Of a stretch of 64,000 bases of DNA, positions 1,871 through 11,629 are shown one piece after another (within the stretch, counting starts at the first letter, position 1; each line of letters begins with the position of its first letter). A program made the position numbers and the translations under genes. The stretch spans positions 1,488,001 to 1,552,000 of the forward strand of contig NZ_AP023354.1 of NCBI RefSeq assembly GCF_018324685.1, read 5' to 3'. The notes under the pieces were generated by a model that was given only the letters and a program-made list of their open reading frames with translations, searched no databases and was not told the origin of the DNA. The DNA comes from Actinocatenispora sera (lineage in GTDB: Bacteria > Actinomycetota > Actinomycetes > Mycobacteriales > Micromonosporaceae).

Positions 1871-3097
1871 CTAGCGGCTGGTTGGCGTGGTGGTGGCTGC
1901 GGCGATGGTGGCTAGAACGGTGAGGGCGCCGAGGGCGAGGAACACGGCGGGGTAGCCGCCGAGCAGGGTGGCCAGTGCGGCGCCGGCGGCGGGTGCGGTG
2001 GCGGCGGCGAGGGTGGTGGGGGCGGAGAGCAGGCCGTTGAGGCGGCCGTAGTGGCGGGTGCCCCAGCGGTCGGAGATGGCGGTGGCTTGCAGGAGGGTGA
2101 ACACGCCGCGGGCGGTGCCGGCGAGGATGGCGCCGGCGATCAGCAGGGCCGCGGGTCCGGGGATCAGGCCAAGTAGCAGGGTGGTGGCTGCGGCGGCGGC
2201 GAGGATGGCGATGGTGCGGGTGCGCACGCTGCTGTGGGCGACGAGGCGTTGGTAGCCGAGGCGTCCGGCGACTTGGCCGAGTCCGCCGAGGCCCAGTGCC
2301 CAGGCGGCGAGGGTGGGGGTCAGGCCGCGGGCGGTCAACAGCGGGACTTGGTTGACCACGACGGCATAGACGGTGAACGCGGCGAGAGTCAGGACGGCGG
2401 TCAGGGTCAGGAAGGGTCGGCTGCGGGCGATGCGGGTTGGTGAGGTGTCGGCCGGTGCGGGCTGGTGGGGTTCATGGCTGGGTGGGGTTGGCCAGGGCAG
2501 GCGTAGCCCGAACAGGTGGGCGGGGATGGTGATCGCGGCCAGGGCGGCGGCGAGGGTGAGGTAGACGCCGCGCCAGCTGAGGTGGTCGGCGAGGGCGGCG
2601 GTCAGCGGCGCGAACACGGTGGAGGCCAGACCGCCGATGAGGGTGAGGGCGGTGAGGGCCTTGACCCGGTCGGGCCCGTACCAGCGGGTCAGCGCGGCGA
2701 ATGCGGGCGGGTAGAGGGTGCCGGCCATGGCGGCGCCCACGGCGATCCAGGCGGCGAGGAACCAGCCGAGGGTGGGGGCGTAGGCGACGGCGGCGAGGGC
2801 GGGTGCGGCGATCACCGAGGCGGTGGTCATGATCGCGCGGGGGCCGTGTCGGTCCAGCAGGCGGCCCAGCGGGATGCCCAGGGCGGCGGCGACCAGTTGG
2901 CTGATCGACAGGCCGGCGGTGAGTGCGGGTAGTGGCCAGCCGGTGTCGTGGTGGATGTGTGGGGCAAGGACGGGGAAGGCGTAGTAGAGCACTCCCCAGC
3001 TGGTGATTTCGGTGCCGCACAGCACGATCAGCACCTGCCGTAGCCGCCGTGCGGTGAGTGCCGTGGCCGTCGAGGTGGTGGGTTCGGGCTGCGTCAC
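1871..3097 (-). CDS. MFS transporter at the end of the ars operon
   Basis: A protein of 408 residues with about 12 hydrophobic segments and the MFS loop 2-3 signature (GRLLDRHGPRAIM). It is an inner-membrane secondary transporter. It follows the FAD oxidoreductase gene on the same strand by 82 bases and is the last gene of the leftward arsenic operon. MFS proteins such as ArsJ and ArsK export arsenical adducts in other ars clusters, so export of an arsenic species is plausible. Sequence alone does not identify it as either, and no GAPDH gene (the ArsJ partner) is present. Confidence 0.75.
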   Translation of the reverse strand: MTQPEPTTSTATALTARRLRQVLIVLCGTEITSWGVLYYAFPVLAPHIHHDTGWPLPALTAGLSISQLVAAALGIPLGRLLDRHGPRAIMTTASVIAAPALAAVAYAPTLGWFLAAWIAVGAAMAGTLYPPAFAALTRWYGPDRVKALTALTLIGGLASTVFAPLTAALADHLSWRGVYLTLAAALAAITIPAHLFGLRLPWPTPPSHEPHQPAPADTSPTRIARSRPFLTLTAVLTLAAFTVYAVVVNQVPLLTARGLTPTLAAWALGLGGLGQVAGRLGYQRLVAHSSVRTRTIAILAAAAATTLLLGLIPGPAALLIAGAILAGTARGVFTLLQATAISDRWGTRHYGRLNGLLSAPTTLAAATAPAAGAALATLLGGYPAVFLALGALTVLATIAAATTTPTSR

Positions 3098-3179: not shown

Positions 3180-4505
3180 TCAGGGGCGCAGGGTCGGTAG
3201 CGCGATCAGTTCGGGTTCGCTGGTCGTGCAGCAGCCGCCGGTGGCGGTGGGGTCGTCGAACACACCGGAGCCGCCGCAGACTCCGGTGTCGGGCAGGGTC
3301 AGCTCGACGCGGTGGGCGGCGTCGTGGTCGCCGGCGAGGGCGGCGACGATGCTGCGGACCTGTTCGTAGCCGGTGAGAGCGAGGAAGGTGGGTGCGCGGC
3401 CGTAGGACTTCATTCCGGCCAGGTAGAAGTCGGGTTCGGGGTGGGCCAGTTCGGCCACGCCGTGGGGGTAGACGGTGCCGCAGGAGTGCACGTTGGGATC
3501 GATCAGCGGTGCCAGCGCGGTCGGTGCCTGCAGGGTGGGGTCGACGCCGAGGCGGATCTCGGACAGCAGCCGGTGGTCGGGGCGGAAGCCGGTGACCGCG
3601 ACGATCTGGTCGACCTGCTCGATGCGGCGCCCGTCGTCGGCGACCACGGCCCATCGGCGGTCGCCAGCCGGGTCGAGGCGGTCGGTACGGAAGCCGGTGA
3701 CGGTGGTGATGTGCCCGGCCTGTACGGCGGCTTGCGCGCGTTGGCCGAGCGCGCCGCGGGCGGCCAGCTCATCGGCTGCGCCGCCGCCGAACACTGCGCC
3801 GGTCTGGCCGCGGCGCAGCAGCCAGCTGATCCGGGTGCCGGGGGCTGTGGCGGCCAGTTCGGCCAGGCCGACCAGGGCGGTCAGGGCGGAGTGGCCGCTG
3901 CCGGCGACCGCGGTGTGGCGGCCGGCGTAGCGGGCGGCGACGGCCGGGTCGGTCAGGTCGGGGATGCGGTAGCTGATCGCTTCGGCGGCGTCGGTTTCGC
4001 CGGCGGCGGGCAGCCCGTCGGCGCCCAGCGGGTTCGGACTCTGCCAGGTGCCGGAGGCGTCGATGACCGCCCGCGCGAGTATCCGACCTTCGCGGCCACC
4101 CGCCTCGCGGGTGTGCACGACGAACGGGGTGGTGTCGCGGCCGGCGTCGACGACACGGTCGCGGCCCTGCCGTGACACCCCGATCACGCGGGTGCCGAAC
4201 CGCACCGTGTCGCCCAGCGTGTCGGCCAGCGGCTGCAGGTACGCGTTGGCCCAGTCGGCCCCGGTCGGGTAGGCGTCACCGGCTGGCGCCTGCCAGCCGG
4301 TGGGTTGCAGCGCGCGGGCGGCGGCCGGGTCGACCAGCTGGCTCCACGGCGAGAACAGCCGGACGTGCCCCCAGCGGTGCACCGCGGCCCCGGCGCGCTC
4401 GCCGGCCTCCAGTACCAGGGCGGGCAGTCCGCGTTCGGTCAGGTGTGCGGCGGCGGCCAGCCCGATCGGGCCGGCGCCGATGACAACCACAGGTGACTCG
4501 ATCAC
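3180..4505 (-). CDS. FAD-dependent oxidoreductase with Cys-rich tail, in ars operon
   Basis: A protein of 441 residues. The dinucleotide motif GAGPIG is at about residues 10-15 and a second AGSGHSA motif lies near the middle, as in flavin-containing monooxygenase/thioredoxin-reductase-like proteins. An ATG-like motif (AVTGFRPDH) precedes the last third. The C-terminus carries an unusual cysteine tail, with one Cys near 410 and a Cys-Cys pair at about 425-426. GTG 4505 is preceded by AGGAGG at about 4513-4518. It sits between the acetyltransferase remnant and the MFS gene. A redox role on an arsenical is inferred from context; the Cys pair could bind As(III). Confidence 0.75.
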   Translation of the reverse strand: MIESPVVVIGAGPIGLAAAAHLTERGLPALVLEAGERAGAAVHRWGHVRLFSPWSQLVDPAAARALQPTGWQAPAGDAYPTGADWANAYLQPLADTLGDTVRFGTRVIGVSRQGRDRVVDAGRDTTPFVVHTREAGGREGRILARAVIDASGTWQSPNPLGADGLPAAGETDAAEAISYRIPDLTDPAVAARYAGRHTAVAGSGHSALTALVGLAELAATAPGTRISWLLRRGQTGAVFGGGAADELAARGALGQRAQAAVQAGHITTVTGFRTDRLDPAGDRRWAVVADDGRRIEQVDQIVAVTGFRPDHRLLSEIRLGVDPTLQAPTALAPLIDPNVHSCGTVYPHGVAELAHPEPDFYLAGMKSYGRAPTFLALTGYEQVRSIVAALAGDHDAAHRVELTLPDTGVCGGSGVFDDPTATGGCCTTSEPELIALPTLRP

Positions 4506-4578: not shown

Positions 4579-4944
4579 TCAGGTGATGGTCGGGCTGCGG
4601 CGCTCCAGCAGCAGCGTGTCGCGCCAGCGGTCGTGGTGGCGGGCGATGCGTTCGCGCACCCCGATGGTGCGAAAGCCGCAGGCGGCGTGCAGGGCGAGGC
4701 TGGCGGTGTTGTCCGGGAAGATCGACACCGCACTCACCGCCACCCACCCGACCACCTCGCCGGCGGCGAGCGCGACATGGCGGTGCTCGGGCAGATGGGT
4801 GGCGTCGAACCGGTCCCAGTCGGGGGCGGTGGTTTCGAAGCTGGCCTGCCCGGTGTCCAGGCCGGCCTGGTAGATGGCGAGGACCGGTTCGGCGTCGGCA
4901 CCGACCATCGGCCGTACCGTCACCGCGCGCGCGTCGGTCAGCAT
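4579..4944 (-). pseudogene. ArsN-like GNAT acetyltransferase with motif A deleted
   Basis: A protein of 121 residues whose two ends match GNAT acetyltransferases of the ArsN/phosphinothricin-acetyltransferase type: the N-terminus VRPM..ADAEPVLAIYQAG..TGQASFET and the C-terminus DNTASLALHAACGFRTIGV. ArsN1 inactivates arsinothricin by N-acetylation. Between VAVSAVS and IFPDN, at about 4731, roughly 40 residues are missing. In the family this segment holds the strand with HSVYV and the acetyl-CoA loop QxxGxG/A. The deletion is in frame, so a shortened protein may be made but should not bind acetyl-CoA. ATG 4944 overlaps the arsR stop by 7 bases. Confidence 0.75.
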
Positions 4945-5288
4945 CGGGGTTGCTGTGGGTTGGGGGCGGGCCGGCCCATCACCACGTCCGCGGCGGTGGG
5001 GAAGCACTCGATGCACGCCTCGTTGACCCGGTAGTGCCGCGAGGTGCCGACTGCCTCGACCAGCACGAACCGCACCCGGGCGAGCACGGCGAGATGCTGC
5101 GAGACCGTCGACTGTGCCACGCCGACCTCGGCCACGACGGCCCCGACGCTCATCGGCTCCCGACGTCGAGCCAGCAACTCCAGGATCTGGATGCGGGTCG
5201 GGTCGGACAGCGCCTTGAACCATCTCGCGTACTGCTCGGCGCTCGCCCGATCCAACAACCCGCCCACGGTGTCACTCTCACCATTCAT
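4938..5288 (-). CDS. arsR: ArsR/SmtB-family repressor of the leftward ars operon
   Basis: A winged-helix repressor of 116 residues (FKALSDPTRIQILELLA, then VAQSTVSQHLAVL as recognition helix). It lacks the classical CxC in helix 3. Instead CIEC lies near the C-terminus (VNEACIECFPTAADVV) with a terminal Cys, an arrangement like other ArsR proteins with C-terminal As(III) sites. ATG 5288 is preferred because family members have short N-termini and the operator palindrome covers this codon. An in-frame ATG at 5336 overlaps the peptidase stop as ATGA and would add 16 residues, so coupled read-through translation is the alternative. Confidence 0.85.
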   Translation of the reverse strand: MNGESDTVGGLLDRASAEQYARWFKALSDPTRIQILELLARRREPMSVGAVVAEVGVAQSTVSQHLAVLARVRFVLVEAVGTSRHYRVNEACIECFPTAADVVMGRPAPNPQQPRC

Positions 5289-5310
5289 CGTTAATCGACG
5301 ATAGACGATG
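5286..5310. promoter_or_regulatory. 25-bp inverted repeat over the arsR start codon
   Basis: Arms CATCGTTAATCG and CGATAGACGATG around a central A pair at 10 of 12 positions. The site covers the ATG at 5288-5286 and lies just after the M28 peptidase stop. It is a good candidate ArsR operator that could let arsR and the downstream genes be transcribed from within the operon. Confidence 0.55.
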
Positions 5311-5332
5311 AAGGGGTCGGTGGCCAGCGTGT

Positions 5333-6535
5333 TCATCGGCGTGTCCGGTCCGCGAGAATCCGCACGGTGGCGGTGACCAGGCGGGTGGCGGCCAGCAGGG
5401 TGTCCGGTTCGACCCGGTCGGGGGTTTCGGCAGGGGTCTGGTAGCCGGGCATGCCCATGCCGACCCCGGCCGCGGGTAGCCCGGCGGCGGCGTAGCGGCG
5501 GTTGTCGGAGGCCATCGGCCCCGCCCGCAGCGCCGTCCCCACCGTGCGGCCGGCCGTATCGAGGGCGTCGAGCAGCTCGTCGGCGGCCCCGCCGGCCTCG
5601 ATGGTGGCGGCCCCGTCGAGGTGGGCGGCGCCGTCGACGTTGAGCACCACCGTGCCCGAGGTCAGACCGCCGGCACGGGTGAGCTGGGTGGCGTGGTGGG
5701 CCGAGCCGAGCGCGCCGGCCTCCTCGGCGTCCAGCAGCGCGACCGCGAGCCCCACGCCGGCCGGCAGGCTGCCGGCGAGATGGCGGGCGGCTTCGAGGAC
5801 GACGGCGACGCCGGAGGCGTTGTCGGCGGCGGCCGGTAGCCGCTGCTGCGGGTCGTCGCCGACCCCGTCGTAGTGCGCGGTCAGCAGGATCGACCGGCCG
5901 CCGGGCGGCGCCTCGCGCAGCACACCGTGCACGTTGGTGCCGGTCGTGGCCACCACCCGAACCGGGATGCGCCCGGTCATCGGGGCCGGGTCGTCGCCCG
6001 CGGTGGCCAGCGTCGCGTGCAAGACGGTGTGCAGGCTGACCACCGGCAGCGGGAGCGGTGTGGGGCCGGTGATCATCTTCGGCATCCAGCCCGCCTCGTC
6101 GACCCCACGCGGCACCAGGATCCCGATCGCCTTCTCGGCGGCGGCCCGCGCCACCGACGCGGCATCCAGCACGGGCAGCAGAATCCACCGGCCACGCCAG
6201 TGGCCGGCCTGCGCCGTGACCACCGGGCCGGCCGCCCCGTCAGGGAGCCCGGCCGAGGCCCCGTGCTCGGCCCAGTCACGCCGATGGGCCAGGGCTCGGC
6301 CCTGGTAGATGAGGGTGGGGGTGTCGGTCAACTCCCGCACCCCGGCGACCGGGAACGCCTCGACTCGCGTGGCCGCTCCCGCCGCGCGCAGCTGAGCGGC
6401 CAGCCACTGGCCCGCGGCCCGGCCGCCGGACGTGCCGACCCGGCGGCCGGTGAACCGGTCGCCGGCCAGCGCCGCCACCGTGTCCACCAGCCGCCGGGTC
6501 GCGCCCGCCTGCCGCGTCGCGGCGGGTGTGCTCAT
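5333..6535 (-). CDS. M28-family zinc aminopeptidase-like protein in ars operon
   Basis: A protein of 400 residues with the M28 metal-ligand series: H221/D223 in AHYDGVG, D238 in AADNASG, E271-E272 in LLDAEEAG and D301 in NVDGA. The usual last ligand, a histidine in YHTxxDT, is Gln366 here (GYQTPAE), which may alter the second metal site. No signal peptide is seen, so a cytoplasmic peptidase is expected. ATG 6535 overlaps the stop of the Cys-pair protein as ATGA, showing translational coupling. The open frame upstream of 6535 is a GC artefact. The substrate could be Cys-rich peptides or thiol-arsenic conjugates; this is inference. Confidence 0.8.
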   Translation of the reverse strand: MSTPAATRQAGATRRLVDTVAALAGDRFTGRRVGTSGGRAAGQWLAAQLRAAGAATRVEAFPVAGVRELTDTPTLIYQGRALAHRRDWAEHGASAGLPDGAAGPVVTAQAGHWRGRWILLPVLDAASVARAAAEKAIGILVPRGVDEAGWMPKMITGPTPLPLPVVSLHTVLHATLATAGDDPAPMTGRIPVRVVATTGTNVHGVLREAPPGGRSILLTAHYDGVGDDPQQRLPAAADNASGVAVVLEAARHLAGSLPAGVGLAVALLDAEEAGALGSAHHATQLTRAGGLTSGTVVLNVDGAAHLDGAATIEAGGAADELLDALDTAGRTVGTALRAGPMASDNRRYAAAGLPAAGVGMGMPGYQTPAETPDRVEPDTLLAATRLVTATVRILADRTRR

Positions 6536-6765
6536 CCGCAGCACCCGGCCCCGGACTCGACCACGTTCTGCGTGGCCACCGGTGCGGTGGCCGCCGGCGT
6601 GCAGCAGCTGCCCGATGTCTGACTCGGCGCGGTCCCGCAGCAGCCGCCCGCCGCATCGCTGGTCGCTGCCGGGGCCGGGCCGCCGCAACACCCGCCACCC
6701 GCCGGCGGCGCGTACGCCTGCGCCGGATCGCCAATGAACCCACCCTGCGTTGCCGTGTCTGTCAT
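6532..6765 (-). CDS. 77-aa protein with four vicinal Cys-Cys pairs
   Basis: A small Gly/Ala/Pro/Thr-rich protein with CC at residues 26-27, 42-43, 54-55 and 75-76, each flanked by glycine or small residues, and no other cysteines. The low-complexity composition suggests little fixed structure without metal. Vicinal Cys pairs bind As(III) in ArsD and in several ArsR proteins, so an arsenic-binding chaperone or metallothionein-like buffer is likely by inference. A strong GAGGAG ribosome site precedes ATG 6765, and the stop overlaps the peptidase start as ATGA. I recognise no named family. It is the best candidate in the window for a new function. Confidence 0.75.
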   Translation of the reverse strand: MTDTATQGGFIGDPAQAYAPPAGGGCCGGPAPAATSDAAGGCCGTAPSQTSGSCCTPAATAPVATQNVVESGAGCCG

Positions 6766-6867
6766 GACCGTCTCCTCTCGTTGCTGCCTGGTCGCTGTTG
6801 TCTGCTTGGTCCCGACGGGGGTTGCTCTCGCGCTGCCTGCGGCCGGTGGGCCACGGCGGACTGCCGG

Positions 6868-7008
6868 CTACGGCCGACCCCACCGCAGACCCAGCGCCTG
6901 GTCACGAATCCGGTCGAGCCGGACCGCGGACCGACACTGCCCCGAGCAGGCGTTCCCGCAGCGCTCGCAGTAGGTCACCGACCGGCGGCGACCGAACAGT
7001 CGCACCAT
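6868..7008 (-). CDS. 46-aa Cys4 mini-protein, first gene of the ars operon
   Basis: The protein starts MVRLFGRRR and has a compact cluster YCERCGNACSGQCRS (spacing CxxCx3Cx3C) followed by a basic amphipathic tail. Four cysteines in 11 residues suggest a bound zinc or other thiophilic metal. AAGGAG stands upstream of ATG 7008, giving a normal ribosome site. It lies 46 bases from the operator at 7054-7081 and 102 bases before the Cys-pair gene, so it would be the promoter-proximal gene of the leftward operon. No function is known to me. Confidence 0.55.
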   Translation of the reverse strand: MVRLFGRRRSVTYCERCGNACSGQCRSAVRLDRIRDQALGLRWGRP

Positions 7009-7053
7009 CACGACTCCTTGAATAGACGCTTGTCGAACCAGAAGCTTGCCTCG

Positions 7054-7081
7054 TTCTTCGATAACTGTCAAGATAGAAGAA
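7054..7081. promoter_or_regulatory. Bidirectional ArsR operator, TTCTTCGAT-N10-ATAGAAGAA
   Basis: The 9-bp arms match at 8 of 9 positions, and the right arm runs into the A of the arsR ATG at 7081. TTGCCT (7046-7051) and CAAGAT (7069-7074) at 17-bp spacing could serve as -35/-10 with transcription starting at the ATG. The site lies between two divergent units and probably controls both. Confidence 0.6.
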
Positions 7082-7452
7082 TGTCGAAGCAACTCCCGGT
7101 GTTGACCACCGACGCCGCCGGCTGCTGCGCGCCGCTGGCGCAGATGCCGCTGCCGGCCGAGCACGCCGCCCGGTTGGCCAAGGCGTACAAGGCGTTGGGT
7201 GATCCGGTGCGCCTGCAGTTGCTGTCGCTGATCGCCTCGCACCCGGGTGGTGAGGCGTGCGTGTGTGACATCACCGCGCCGTTCGAGTTGACCGGTCCGA
7301 CGATCTCCCACCACCTCAAGGTGCTGCGCGAGGCCGGGCTGATCGCCGGCGAGCGGCGCGGCACCTGGGTGTACTACCGGCCGGTGCGTGAGGCCATCAC
7401 CGAGCTGTCCACCTTGCTGGTGGTGCCCCAGGCCACCGCCACCGTCTCCTGA
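7081..7452 (+). CDS. arsR: ArsR-family arsenic-responsive repressor
   Basis: A winged-helix repressor of 123 residues (KALGDPVRLQLLSLIA; recognition helix TGPTISHHLKVL). It carries Cys15-Cys16 near the N-terminus and a CVC motif at 60-62. The N-terminal pair is at the same position as in Corynebacterium glutamicum ArsR, whose As(III) site uses Cys15, Cys16 and Cys55, and CxC is the classical helix-3 site. So it could bind As(III) with three or more thiols. No good ribosome site precedes ATG 7081, and the operator reaches the start codon, so a leaderless transcript is likely. It is divergent from the Cys4 gene and is followed by convergent arsO. Confidence 0.9.
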   Translation: MSKQLPVLTTDAAGCCAPLAQMPLPAEHAARLAKAYKALGDPVRLQLLSLIASHPGGEACVCDITAPFELTGPTISHHLKVLREAGLIAGERRGTWVYYRPVREAITELSTLLVVPQATATVS

Positions 7453-9016: not shown

Positions 9017-10148
9017 TCAGGCGGCCAGGGCGGCGGTGAGCTGCGCGACGCAGGCCTTCGCGGTGCGGGCGGCGCCGATGATGGTGGCCGACGCGGTGCC
9101 GGTCCAGTCGCCGTAGCCGAGCAGGTGCAGCCGCGGCTCGTCGACCGAGCGGGTGCCGACCGTCGCCGGAACCCCCTGCACCGTGGACAGGCCGAGCGGG
9201 TCGAGGTGCCCCAGGTCGGGCCGAAACCCGGTACACCAGATGATCGTGTCGAAGCGGCCGAGGGTGTCGTCCGGCCACACGACGCCCTCGGGAACGAGCC
9301 TGGTGAACATCGGCCGCGCCACCAGGACCCCGCGCTCGCGGGCCGCCCGAACGCTGGGCACCATCACGATCTCGCCCAGCGCCGCGGCTCCGCGGTCGTC
9401 ACCCCGGCCGGCGGCCACCGCGGCCTGCCGGCGACTGGCCACATCGAACAGCACCCGGCCGTCGACCTCGTCGGGCAACAACCGCGGTGGCCGCAGCGTG
9501 GCCCAACTGGTCTTCGCCACGGTGGAGACCTCGGCGAGGATCTGCGCCGCCGAGTTTCCGCCACCCACCACCAGCACCCGCTGCCCGGCGAACGGTTCCG
9601 GCCGCCGGTACGACACCGTGTGCAACTGCCGGCCGCCGAACCGGCCCGGATAGCGCGGCCAATAGGGGCGCCGCCAGGTCCCGGTCGCCGAGACCACCGC
9701 ACCGGCCCGCCACCGCACCGGCCCGCCACCGCGCCGACCGGGACCGCACCTCCAGCCCGCCGGCGACGCGGCCGAACGCGGTGACCTCGACCGGCCGCAC
9801 GATCGGCAGCGCGTAGCGCCGCTCGTAGTCGGCCAGATAGCCGCGAACGTGCGCGGCGGTGGGGAACGGCTCACCCGGCTGCGGCGGCATCCACCACCCG
9901 GGCAGCGGACTGTACCGGGCCGGGGAGAACAGCCGCAGCGACTCCCAGCCATGCCGCCACGCCCCACCCGCGCCGATCTGCGCGTCGAGGATCACGAACG
10001 ACACCCCGGCCCGCCGCAGGAAGTACCCGGCCGCGAGCCCGGCCTGGCCGCCGCCGACCACCACGACATCGACCGCGCCACCCCGATCCAGGGCGGCGTC
10101 GGCTTCGGTCACCGGCCCCGACCCGCGGTCGGCTTCCCGTCGATCCAC
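9017..10148 (-). pseudogene. Second ArsO-like flavoprotein gene, frameshifted
   Basis: The N-terminal part ([33 protein letters not shown]) is in one frame and the C-terminal part ([45 protein letters not shown]) in another. The shift occurs in a 16-bp tandem duplication at 9695-9726. Removing one copy restores a single protein of about 370 residues of the FAD/NAD(P)H monooxygenase type. The start is probably GTG 10148, behind AGAGGTG. It is divergent from the arsR-acr3-arsC unit. The gene is either a recent pseudogene, a reversible slipped-strand variant or an assembly error. Confidence 0.75.
9695..9732. repeat. 16-bp tandem duplication inside an arsO-like gene
   Basis: CACCGCACCGGCCCGC occurs at 9695-9710 and 9711-9726 and is followed by a 6-base partial copy. 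The unit is not a multiple of three, so one extra copy accounts exactly for the frameshift in the surrounding gene. Confidence 0.85.
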
Positions 10149-10181
10149 GGACAGGCCACCTCTCGTCCACCGGTTCGTCGT

Positions 10182-10230
10182 TTGACACGGCCGCACCGGC
10201 CGAGCTTAGATCAATCCATGTTGATATCAA
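10182..10230 (+). promoter_or_regulatory. Leaderless arsR-acr3 promoter with canonical ArsR operator
   Basis: TTGACA (10182-10187) and TTAGAT (10206-10211) at 18-bp spacing place transcription start at or next to the ATG at 10218. ATCAA (10210-10214), six bases, then TTGAT (10221-10225) is the classical ArsR half-site arrangement, and TTGATATCAA (10221-10230) continues the symmetry. The operator covers the start codon. Confidence 0.7.
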
Positions 10231-10523
10231 CCGAGCCTGATGTGATTCGGCTGCTGGCCGATCCCATCCGGGCCCGGATCGTGGACCTGCTGGCCGACGG
10301 CGCCCTGTGCACCTGCCACCTGGTCGACGACCTCGGCGCGAAACAGCCGCTGGTCTCCCACCACCTGCGCGCCCTGCGGGAAGCCGGCCTGGTCGAACGC
10401 GAACCACACGGCAAGTTCACCTACTACCGGCTGCGACCCGACATGCTGCGCGCGACGGCGACACGGCTCACCGACCTGGCCGACCGCGCCGCAGGCAACG
10501 CGGACGTCCGGCGGGAATGCTGA
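10218..10523 (+). CDS. arsR: ArsR repressor of the acr3-arsC unit
   Basis: A compact protein of 101 residues: IRLLADPIRARIVDLLADGALCTCHLV, then recognition helix KQPLVSHHLRAL and wing EREPHGKFTYYRL. Cys31 and Cys33 form the classical CxC As(III) sensor in helix 3, close to the ELCVCDL motif of E. coli ArsR, with a further Cys at the C-terminus. There is no ribosome site before the ATG; the promoter spacing predicts a leaderless mRNA. Its TGA overlaps the downstream acr3 ATG by one base, so the two are co-translated. Confidence 0.92.
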   Translation: MLISTEPDVIRLLADPIRARIVDLLADGALCTCHLVDDLGAKQPLVSHHLRALREAGLVEREPHGKFTYYRLRPDMLRATATRLTDLADRAAGNADVRREC

Positions 10524-11629
10524 TGGGCGCCACCGACACCGCCACACCCGCCGACCAGGCGGTCGTGGGCCGGCTGTCGCGCCTGGATCGGTTCCTGCCG
10601 CTCTGGATCCTGCTCGCGATGGCCGCCGGGCTCGGCCTGGGCCGGCTGATCCCCGGCCTCAACACCGCCCTCAACGCCGTACGGGTCGGCGACGTGTCCC
10701 TCCCGATCGCCGCCGGGCTGCTGATCATGATGTACCCGGTACTGGCCAAGGTCCGCTACGACCGGCTCGACACCGTCACCCGCGACCGCCGCCTGCTGAT
10801 CCCCTCGCTGCTGCTCAACTGGATCGTCGGGCCGGCCGTGATGTTCGCGCTGGCCTGGCTTCTGCTGCCTGATCTGCCTGCCTACCGGACCGGGCTGATC
10901 ATCGTCGGGCTGGCCCGCTGCATCGCCATGGTGATCATCTGGAACGACCTCGCCTGCGGCGACCGGGAAGCCGCCGCCGTCCTGGTCGCCCTCAACTCCG
11001 TGTTCCAGGTCATCGCGTTCGGACTGCTCGGCTGGTTCTACCTGACCGTCCTGCCCGGCTGGCTCGGCCTGCCCGCCACCGACCTGCACTTCTCTGTCTG
11101 GTCCATCGCCCGCTCCGTGCTGATCTTCCTCGGCATCCCGCTGATCGCCGGATACCTGACTCGCCGACTCGGTGAACGCGGCAAGGGACGCGACTGGTAC
11201 GAGGGCCGGTTGCTGCCCAAGCTCGGACCGTTCGCGCTCTACGGGCTGCTGTTCACCATCGTCATCCTGTTCGCGCTGCAAGGCGACGCGATCACCCGCA
11301 GCCCCATCGACGTGGCCCGCATCGCGCTGCCGCTACTCAGCTACTTCGCCATCATGTGGGCCGGCTCGTTCGCCCTCGGCCGCGCTGTCGGCCTGCCGTA
11401 CCAGCGGACCGCGACGCTGGCGTTCACCGCCGCCGGCAACAACTTCGAACTCGCCATCGCCGTGGCCATCGCGACCTTCGGCGTCACCTCCGGCCAAGCC
11501 CTCGCCGGTGTGGTCGGGCCGTTGATCGAAGTACCCGCCCTGGTCGCGCTGGTCTACGTGTCGCTGTGGCTACGCCGCCGACTCAACCCCGCCACCGCAA
11601 CGCTCGCACCCTCGGGGAACTCGTCATGA
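10523..11629 (+). CDS. acr3: ACR3-type arsenite efflux permease
   Basis: A protein of 368 residues with about ten membrane segments. The conserved Cys-containing stretch GLARCIAMVIIWNDLACGD (the Cys needed for As(III) transport in characterised ACR3 proteins) and the FTAAGNNFELAIAVAIATFG stretch in a later helix identify the BASS-superfamily arsenite/H+ antiporter. It exports As(III) across the cytoplasmic membrane. ATG 10523 overlaps the arsR stop; ATG 10517 is an alternative two codons upstream. Downstream lie the three-helix gene and arsC, giving a full arsenate reduction and efflux unit. Confidence 0.93.
   Translation: MGATDTATPADQAVVGRLSRLDRFLPLWILLAMAAGLGLGRLIPGLNTALNAVRVGDVSLPIAAGLLIMMYPVLAKVRYDRLDTVTRDRRLLIPSLLLNWIVGPAVMFALAWLLLPDLPAYRTGLIIVGLARCIAMVIIWNDLACGDREAAAVLVALNSVFQVIAFGLLGWFYLTVLPGWLGLPATDLHFSVWSIARSVLIFLGIPLIAGYLTRRLGERGKGRDWYEGRLLPKLGPFALYGLLFTIVILFALQGDAITRSPIDVARIALPLLSYFAIMWAGSFALGRAVGLPYQRTATLAFTAAGNNFELAIAVAIATFGVTSGQALAGVVGPLIEVPALVALVYVSLWLRRRLNPATATLAPSGNSS

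Follow-up and report, generated by a model that had tools for sequence, protein, structure and literature searches.

Why should an arsenic-resistance island carry a gene for a peptidase, placed directly behind a gene for a small protein rich in cysteine pairs? We know of no arsenic-resistance pathway that includes a peptidase. The pair lies in a window of 64,000 nucleotides (the whole stretch of DNA that was analyzed) from the Actinocatenispora sera genome (7.04 Mb, single contig), and the arsenic-resistance island occupies about 1.9-12.3 kb of this window. In order, it contains genes for an ArsK-like MFS transporter, a Cys-tailed flavoprotein, an ArsN1-like acetyltransferase, ArsR, the M28 peptidase, the Cys-pair protein and a 46-aa Cys4 protein; the divergent half continues with ArsR, further ArsO-like flavoproteins, ArsR, ACR3 and ArsC, the last of which was named by eye and served as a query only. 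The main features are as follows.

1871..3097, minus strand: ArsK-like MFS transporter, 162.8 bits, under the curated ArsK cut-off of 400
3180..4505, minus strand: flavoprotein, named ArsOa here; it has DTGVC and a CC tail at the C-terminus
4579..4944, minus strand: ArsN1-like acetyltransferase with a 47-residue in-frame gap relative to the related locus L002
4938..5336, minus strand: second ArsR
5281..5315, no strand: candidate operator, an imperfect palindrome of 17 nt located between the second ArsR gene and the peptidase gene
5333..6535, minus strand: M28 peptidase, 400 aa, with H221, D238, E272, D301 and the catalytic E271 kept and Gln366, not His, as the fifth ligand
6532..6535, minus strand: ATGA overlap of stop and start codons, with possible translational coupling
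6532..6765, minus strand: Cys-pair protein, 77 aa, with four CC pairs, an N-terminal GGF motif and a C-terminal GCCG
6868..7008, minus strand: 46-aa Cys4 protein with the motif CxxCx3Cx3C, which in several relatives lies between the ArsR and Cys-pair genes
7009..7080, no strand: divergent promoter region with an inverted repeat at 7054-7081 and TCTATCTTGAC at 7067-7077 on the minus strand
7081..7452, plus strand: divergent ArsR-family repressor with CC15-16 and a CVC motif, like the As(III) ligands of Corynebacterium glutamicum ArsR
10517..11629, plus strand: ACR3 arsenite efflux transporter

The answer to which we give an even chance is that the pair forms an accessory module of an arsenite-resistance cassette, in which the small protein would be an As(III) carrier and the M28 enzyme its dedicated peptidase. 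A preliminary description, made from the letters of the window, had already pointed to the 77-aa reading frame with its Cys pairs at 26-27, 42-43, 54-55 and 75-76, its ATGA overlap with an M28-type peptidase gene and the 46-aa Cys4 protein ahead of both. These elements were confirmed: the translation has the pairs at these positions, the two frames (6532-6765 and 5333-6535, both on the minus strand) overlap as described, the 400-aa product matches Peptidase_M28 (PF04389) with an E-value of 1.4e-24 and 87.3 bits against a cut-off of 21.3, and the CxxCx3Cx3C protein is encoded at 6868-7008 on the minus strand.

What kind of protein does the small gene encode? All four pairs were kept in only 10 of 200,000 shuffles of the 77-aa protein, so the pairing of its cysteines exceeds chance. 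The relatives are 60-116 aa long, with abundant Ala, Gly, Thr, Ser and Pro and approximately 10% Cys, and consist of repeated (G)CCG units separated by variable, low-complexity spacers. Among the matches listed, 454 of the 458 cysteines in 55 distinct proteins lie inside CC pairs; 50 of the 55 have four pairs, four Ktedonobacter and Tengunoibacter proteins have six and L037 has three. In the same set of distinct proteins among the matches listed, the spacers between pairs range from 6 to 29 residues and the last pair lies no more than two residues from the C-terminus in 54 of 55. The eight cysteines, Gly8 and Phe10 are the invariant columns of an alignment of 18 of the 56 relatives, hand-chosen from Actinomycetota and Chloroflexota with L037 (three pairs) and L049 left out. 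Since the spacers vary while the pairs are fixed, this organization suggests independent dithiol sites in a disordered chain.

The protein has no family model. The 77-aa sequence matched no family in Pfam or NCBIfam at E-values up to 1, none of the 18 relatives matched NCBIfam, and the alignment profile found nothing in the PDB at E-values up to 1; in particular, neither the 77-aa protein (E up to 1) nor the 18 relatives matched an ArsD model of NCBIfam or Pfam, or a Pfam metallothionein model. The galaxin repeat (PF24748), a eukaryotic repeat with Cys pairs, gave weak Pfam matches to 4 of the 18 relatives (E-values up to 0.01, best 0.00045) and none to the 77-aa protein; these were taken as coincidence and probably reflect shared Cys-pair spacing. 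As(III) is the presumed ligand, because of the ars context and because the divergent ArsR carries ligands of the C. glutamicum type (CC15-16); the pairs could instead bind Cu(I) or Zn(II) or act in redox chemistry. In C. glutamicum ArsR, the As(III) ligands are given as Cys15, Cys16 and Cys55 in the relevant passage of PMC11868830.

These features lead to a key question: is the association of the small gene with the peptidase gene a peculiarity of the window, or is it conserved? A contig scan with the peptidase gave at least 51 loci, to which six whole-genome matches, the window included, were added. A CC-rich reading frame lies directly upstream on the same strand in 50 of the 51 contig-scan loci among the matches listed, and the Cys-pair gene is directly upstream of the peptidase gene in 56 of 57 distinct loci (matches listed, window included). 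The first scan had also given 56 of 57; L013 and L053 are one place, and L147, the single relative in the plasmid collection, has the pair and restores the count. Conservation of the Cys pairs and of their adjacency to the peptidase, which the preliminary description had named beforehand as a test, therefore held at these 56 of 57 loci. Its proposal of translational coupling fared differently: the ATGA overlap is real in the window, but coupling is not general, since the exact four-base overlap is estimated to occur in 4 of 56 loci among the matches listed.

The pairing persists at peptidase identities of 34-80%. It was found in isolates of two phyla, Actinomycetota and Chloroflexota, and in one contig binned as Thermoplasmata; in Chloroflexota, one actinobacterial MAG and the Thermoplasmata-binned contig (binning unchecked), the peptidase is 34-39% identical and the Cys-pair gene is still present. 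In the lone exception, L052, a single deletion of approximately 1.5 kb relative to the closely related L027 removed the small gene together with the greater part of the peptidase gene; the flanks of the two loci are 96.7-98% identical. As a control, other M28 genes were inspected, and none of 28 fetched loci had a comparable Cys-pair partner; in two of the 28, a CC-containing reading frame was judged out of frame by composition, and less upstream DNA was seen in nine of the 28 because the match starts past profile position 100. The partner peptidases appear to form a separate M28 subfamily by score: they reach 549 and 584 bits in a search of 121 genomes of the order, in which the best candidates of each genome were scored and every other M28 protein stayed at or below 99 bits. 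The pair is uncommon, as six of 298 genomes from the order and one of 396 from a phylum sample contain the peptidase (E-value 1e-20; own genome in both).

Searches that started from the small protein gave a similar distribution. In the 298 genomes there were nine matches, eight of them real, and six of the eight lie beside an M28 gene; in the phylum sample, the one real match in 396 genomes is the window's own copy. The match L066 (genome G077) was dropped as a chance match, out of frame or repeat-derived, as was L148 (G345), also out of frame or repeat-derived. A second profile applied to 11 genomes of named loci revealed three further copies, all three adjoining an M28 gene. Because the known copies in L042, L047 and L049 escaped this search, profile counts are lower bounds, and copies without a peptidase may be commoner than seen. 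The two remaining real copies have no partner peptidase in their genomes at an E-value of 1e-20. In G197 (L064, L112), a four-pair protein is encoded directly upstream of an ArsK-like MFS gene, and in G275 (L065, L105), the Cys-tailed flavoprotein carries a three-pair domain as an N-terminal fusion.

These copies bear on the N-terminal GGF motif. It is present in 54 of 55 distinct peptidase-linked proteins among the matches listed (L003 has GRF) and also in L147, L166, L167 and L168, and it is absent from both M28-less stretches. With only these two peptidase-less cases and relatedness uncontrolled, the one-sided Fisher probability for the link is ~0.0016; judged by these sequences, GGF tracks the peptidase. 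A short precursor-like gene with a conserved N-terminal motif and an adjacent peptidase is also what RiPP-like maturation would produce, with GGF as the leader, the M28 enzyme as the maturation protease and the Cys-rich part as the modified, arsenic-binding product. We consider this very improbable indeed: no conserved modifying enzyme was recognized, either among the reading frames listed at six loci or in comparisons of the others with ars queries, and versions without M28 exist.

The decay of the two genes is not always joint. Among the matches listed, the peptidase frame is interrupted and the small gene intact in L038, L041 and L051 (the last with a large internal gap), and in L167, Ktedonobacter robiniae's second module, an open peptidase frame accompanies a Cys-pair gene that is divided between two frames. 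The three interrupted peptidases, together with the ArsN1-type acetyltransferase genes (a family named for arsinothricin resistance) that flank 19 of the 51 named loci listed, would be in line with mere co-regulation, in which the peptidase has its substrate elsewhere, for instance, an arsenic antibiotic peptide or a thiol conjugate. Such a loose relationship is decidedly unlikely in view of the near-strict pairing across 34-80% peptidase identity, the joint loss in L052 and the tracking of the peptidase by GGF. For the alternative in the preliminary description, cleavage of arsenic-thiol or mycothiol conjugates, the sequences offered no support. As for copy number, a further copy (L005 and L034) is present in both the L041 and the L051 genome, and Catelliglobosispora koreensis has three separate Cys-pair and peptidase modules (L026, L036 and L166).

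Another important question is whether the peptidase is likely to be active, and where. Its profile aligns with those of BSAP (2ek8) and YwaD (6hc6) over nearly the full length. In an alignment of 54 partner peptidases among the matches listed, which excludes L041, L051 and L052 because they fall short of 300 aa and counts L013/L053 twice, H221, D238, E271, E272 and D301 are invariant in all 54. The window's enzyme has Gln as its fifth metal ligand; among the 54, this ligand is Gln in 41 and His in 12, and L038 has a gap there. His goes with Asp four residues further on in all 12 and Gln with Glu in all 41, with no mixtures. His366 and Asp370 thus set L042, L044-L050 and L054-L057 against the other aligned peptidases without intermediates. 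With the His/Asp group set by us as the root, the peptidase tree is in agreement with one switch of both residues inside Actinomycetota, and this paired change suggests a metal site that was adjusted rather than decayed. Most Actinomycetota enzymes have Gln at this position, which leaves their catalytic activity uncertain. No strongly hydrophobic stretch occurs in the first 45 residues of any of the 54 partner peptidases among the matches listed; as the starts were set near the start of homology, a signal peptide could be masked unless the genes overlap, as they do in the window. Depletion of cysteine in the peptidase (0.33% versus 0.55% in matched control segments) was too small to be of use.

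The nature of the enzyme also weighs on another possibility, namely, that the peptidase cuts the small protein into CCG peptides that chelate As(III) and are exported as complexes by the MFS transporter, similarly to phytochelatin and mercapturate systems, which use nonribosomal thiols. A chain of (G)CCG units set apart by variable spacers of low complexity would suit such a scheme, as would the ArsK-like MFS genes in the flanks of 35 of the 51 named loci listed and, in L064, directly downstream of the Cys-pair gene. L064, however, has the protein and the transporter without the peptidase, the flanks of 16 of the 51 named loci listed contain no MFS match, and the closest solved M28 enzymes, BSAP and YwaD, are known as aminopeptidases and not as endopeptidases. 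We therefore judge export in this form unlikely.

Is the surrounding context consistently that of arsenic resistance, as the preliminary description assumed for the window? Six loci were compared with their reading frames listed and the others against ars queries only. At least one ars-type marker was found in the fetched flanks of 50 of the 51 named loci among the matches listed, which bears the assumption out. The markers at these 51 loci are ArsR (46), the Cys-tailed flavoprotein (39), MFS (35), ArsC (31), ACR3 (23), ArsO-like flavoproteins (22) and ArsN (19). Five of the 50 contexts (L019, L024, L036, L045 and L049) are ArsR-family matches without another strong marker, the match in L036 being 30%; L045 adjoins an arsenite methyltransferase-like (ArsM-like) gene just below the curated cut-off, and no ars-type marker was found in the fetched flanks of L050. 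Within 1.1 kb upstream of the 56 Cys-pair genes listed, there is a divergent ArsR gene in 18, the 46-aa gene with a divergent ArsR behind it in 8, a same-strand ArsO-like gene in 11, a same-strand ArsR gene in 4, the flavoprotein gene in 1 and none found in 14. The CxxCx3Cx3C protein lies between ArsR and the Cys-pair gene in the window, L002, L003, L004, L007, L008, L010, L034, L041 and L051, and a weakly similar stretch of the EVCDAACRA type was noted upstream of the flavoprotein gene in L015, L021, L027 and L052. The window's ArsN1-like acetyltransferase is probably inactive, since the 47 missing residues belong to the domain core.

The pair itself looks like an insert in a standing ars cassette, because ArsR, ArsR, ArsN and the flavoprotein occur in the window's order with fewer than 260 bases between the two ArsR genes in 7 of 20 stretches; these were hand-chosen, and 19 of them come from the window's family. 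Candidate operators were sought on both sides of the pair. The imperfect inverted repeat at 7054-7081, a putative operator, contains TCTATCTTGAC, which is found again ahead of the small gene at other loci. The second ArsR may start at an internal ATG at 5288, which would leave the palindrome at 5281..5315 upstream of it. TCTAATCA and AAGATAGA occur in 26 and 18 of 55 upstream regions, respectively, against maxima of 9 to 14 in 20 shuffles; the 420-base upstream windows include ArsR coding sequence, which itself gives GC-rich 8-mers at up to 19. The recurring 8-mers are a stronger signal than the inverted repeats surveyed in 18 divergent intergenic regions. A single match of the window-derived pattern is circular, because the pattern was taken partly from the window.

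Which partner could receive arsenic from such a carrier? Of 298 genomes of the order, 109 contain the Cys-tailed flavoprotein; among them are all six that carry the peptidase and all eight that carry the Cys-pair protein (hypergeometric probability for the eight, 2.7e-4, kinship uncorrected). It scores 52.4 bits against the ArsO model NF040505, below the curated cut-off of 425, and resembles YpdA/thioredoxin-reductase-like and flavin monooxygenase enzymes. A CC tail follows (E/D/A)TGVC in 87 of 88 distinct flavoproteins (86 by the strict motif and L113 by eye; L015 is without CC), often not at the very end. In 24 chosen sequences, there is no invariant Cys before residue 342, C342 being the first. 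The flavoprotein is not nearby in 12 loci; of seven genomes searched, four have it elsewhere, and in three MAGs with the pair, it was not found by the genome search. A look-alike (GGAGLFDEP...GGCCG versus GGF.GDP...GGCCG) had suggested homology between the Cys-pair protein and the flavoprotein tail, but hhalign aligned only ten columns, with a probability of 45.6, which shows no homology beyond GGCCG, and the idea was rejected as established homology. The Cys-Cys tail and the fusion in G275, together with the tracking of the peptidase by GGF, change the picture drawn in the preliminary description.

The fusion and the Cys-Cys tail common to both proteins, as well as the resemblance of the flavoprotein to YpdA/thioredoxin-reductase-like and flavin monooxygenase enzymes, would also agree with a small protein that serves as a redox or metal buffer and as the substrate of the flavoprotein, in disulfide reduction or arsenic oxidation, with the peptidase only clearing oxidized or damaged copies. 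The three pair-bearing MAGs without the flavoprotein and the tighter linkage of the small gene to the peptidase gene than to the flavoprotein gene make this rather unlikely.

In the carrier-and-peptidase module that we favor, arsenite would relieve ArsR repression, and the Cys-pair protein would be made. Its chain of 60-116 aa, predicted to be disordered and bearing vicinal dithiols, would take up As(III), or possibly Sb(III) or trivalent organoarsenicals. By analogy with NmerA, which serves mercuric reductase in this way, it could then deliver As(III) to the efflux proteins and the Cys-tailed flavoprotein. The M28 enzyme, as the carrier's dedicated cytoplasmic peptidase, would recognize the N-terminal GGF segment and trim or degrade the carrier, whereby thiols and bound arsenic would be released. 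A more specific version, which we offer tentatively and with clearly less confidence, is that the small protein is a ribosomally made poly-dithiol resembling phytochelatins, and that a dedicated cytoplasmic peptidase reading GGF either frees its arsenic load or enables its export in the form of small thiol peptides, with the flavoprotein as an acceptor through its Cys tail. If a poly-dithiol with a GGF-reading peptidase is real, it would represent a new principle of detoxification, and the ars cassette would gain a proteolytic step.

Several known systems offer a comparison. ArsD is a small ars-operon protein that uses vicinal Cys pairs, and the Cys-pair protein is likewise small, encoded in ars operons and equipped with vicinal Cys pairs; it differs in having no NCBIfam or Pfam ArsD match, in its low-complexity chain and in its tie to a peptidase. 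Metallothioneins and phytochelatins are small flexible chains that bind metals and metalloids by many thiols, as is expected of the Cys-pair protein, whose cysteines, by contrast, make up ~10% of residues, nearly all in CC pairs, in an encoded protein with an adjacent peptidase gene. The partner peptidase resembles BSAP and YwaD in its nearly full-length profile match and catalytic residues and departs from them in showing no sign of export and in the replacement of the fifth-ligand His by Gln and of Asp by Glu in 41 of 54. The window's flavoprotein and MFS transporter share ars neighborhoods and family similarity with ArsO and ArsK, although both score well under the curated cut-offs and the flavoprotein carries a Cys tail. 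With NmerA and MerA, the module shares a Cys carrier, separate or fused, and a flavoprotein with its own vicinal Cys tail; unlike NmerA, the carrier has no sequence match to a known domain, and unlike MerA, ArsOa has no redox-active Cys pair near FAD, since no invariant Cys precedes residue 342. A C-terminal vicinal Cys pair is described for MerA in a passage of PMC3466566, and a function as an As(III) metallochaperone for ArsD in one of PMC6514093. The module may thus work like NmerA/MerA or ArsD, the likeness being one of mode of working, while the sequences support membership in neither.

In the open literature around arsenic, M28 peptidase and operon, with subscription journals largely outside the scope, we found no description of the pair. 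With a small protein that has no family model, a peptidase and a flavoprotein, it is a compact, testable system, and it opens a way to study what ArsO-type flavoproteins do in ars clusters, which is called undeciphered in a passage of PMC6205960.

Two minor observations concern the rest of the island and its border. A third ArsO-family flavoprotein gene at 9017-10196 on the minus strand is apparently split over two frames, as judged by eye, near 9.7 kb; a short tandem duplication lies at the split, and the downstream part matches the family. Ahead of the island, two adjacent reading frames at 577-1680 on the plus strand, which we take to be SRPBCC-like, show mutual similarity by eye.
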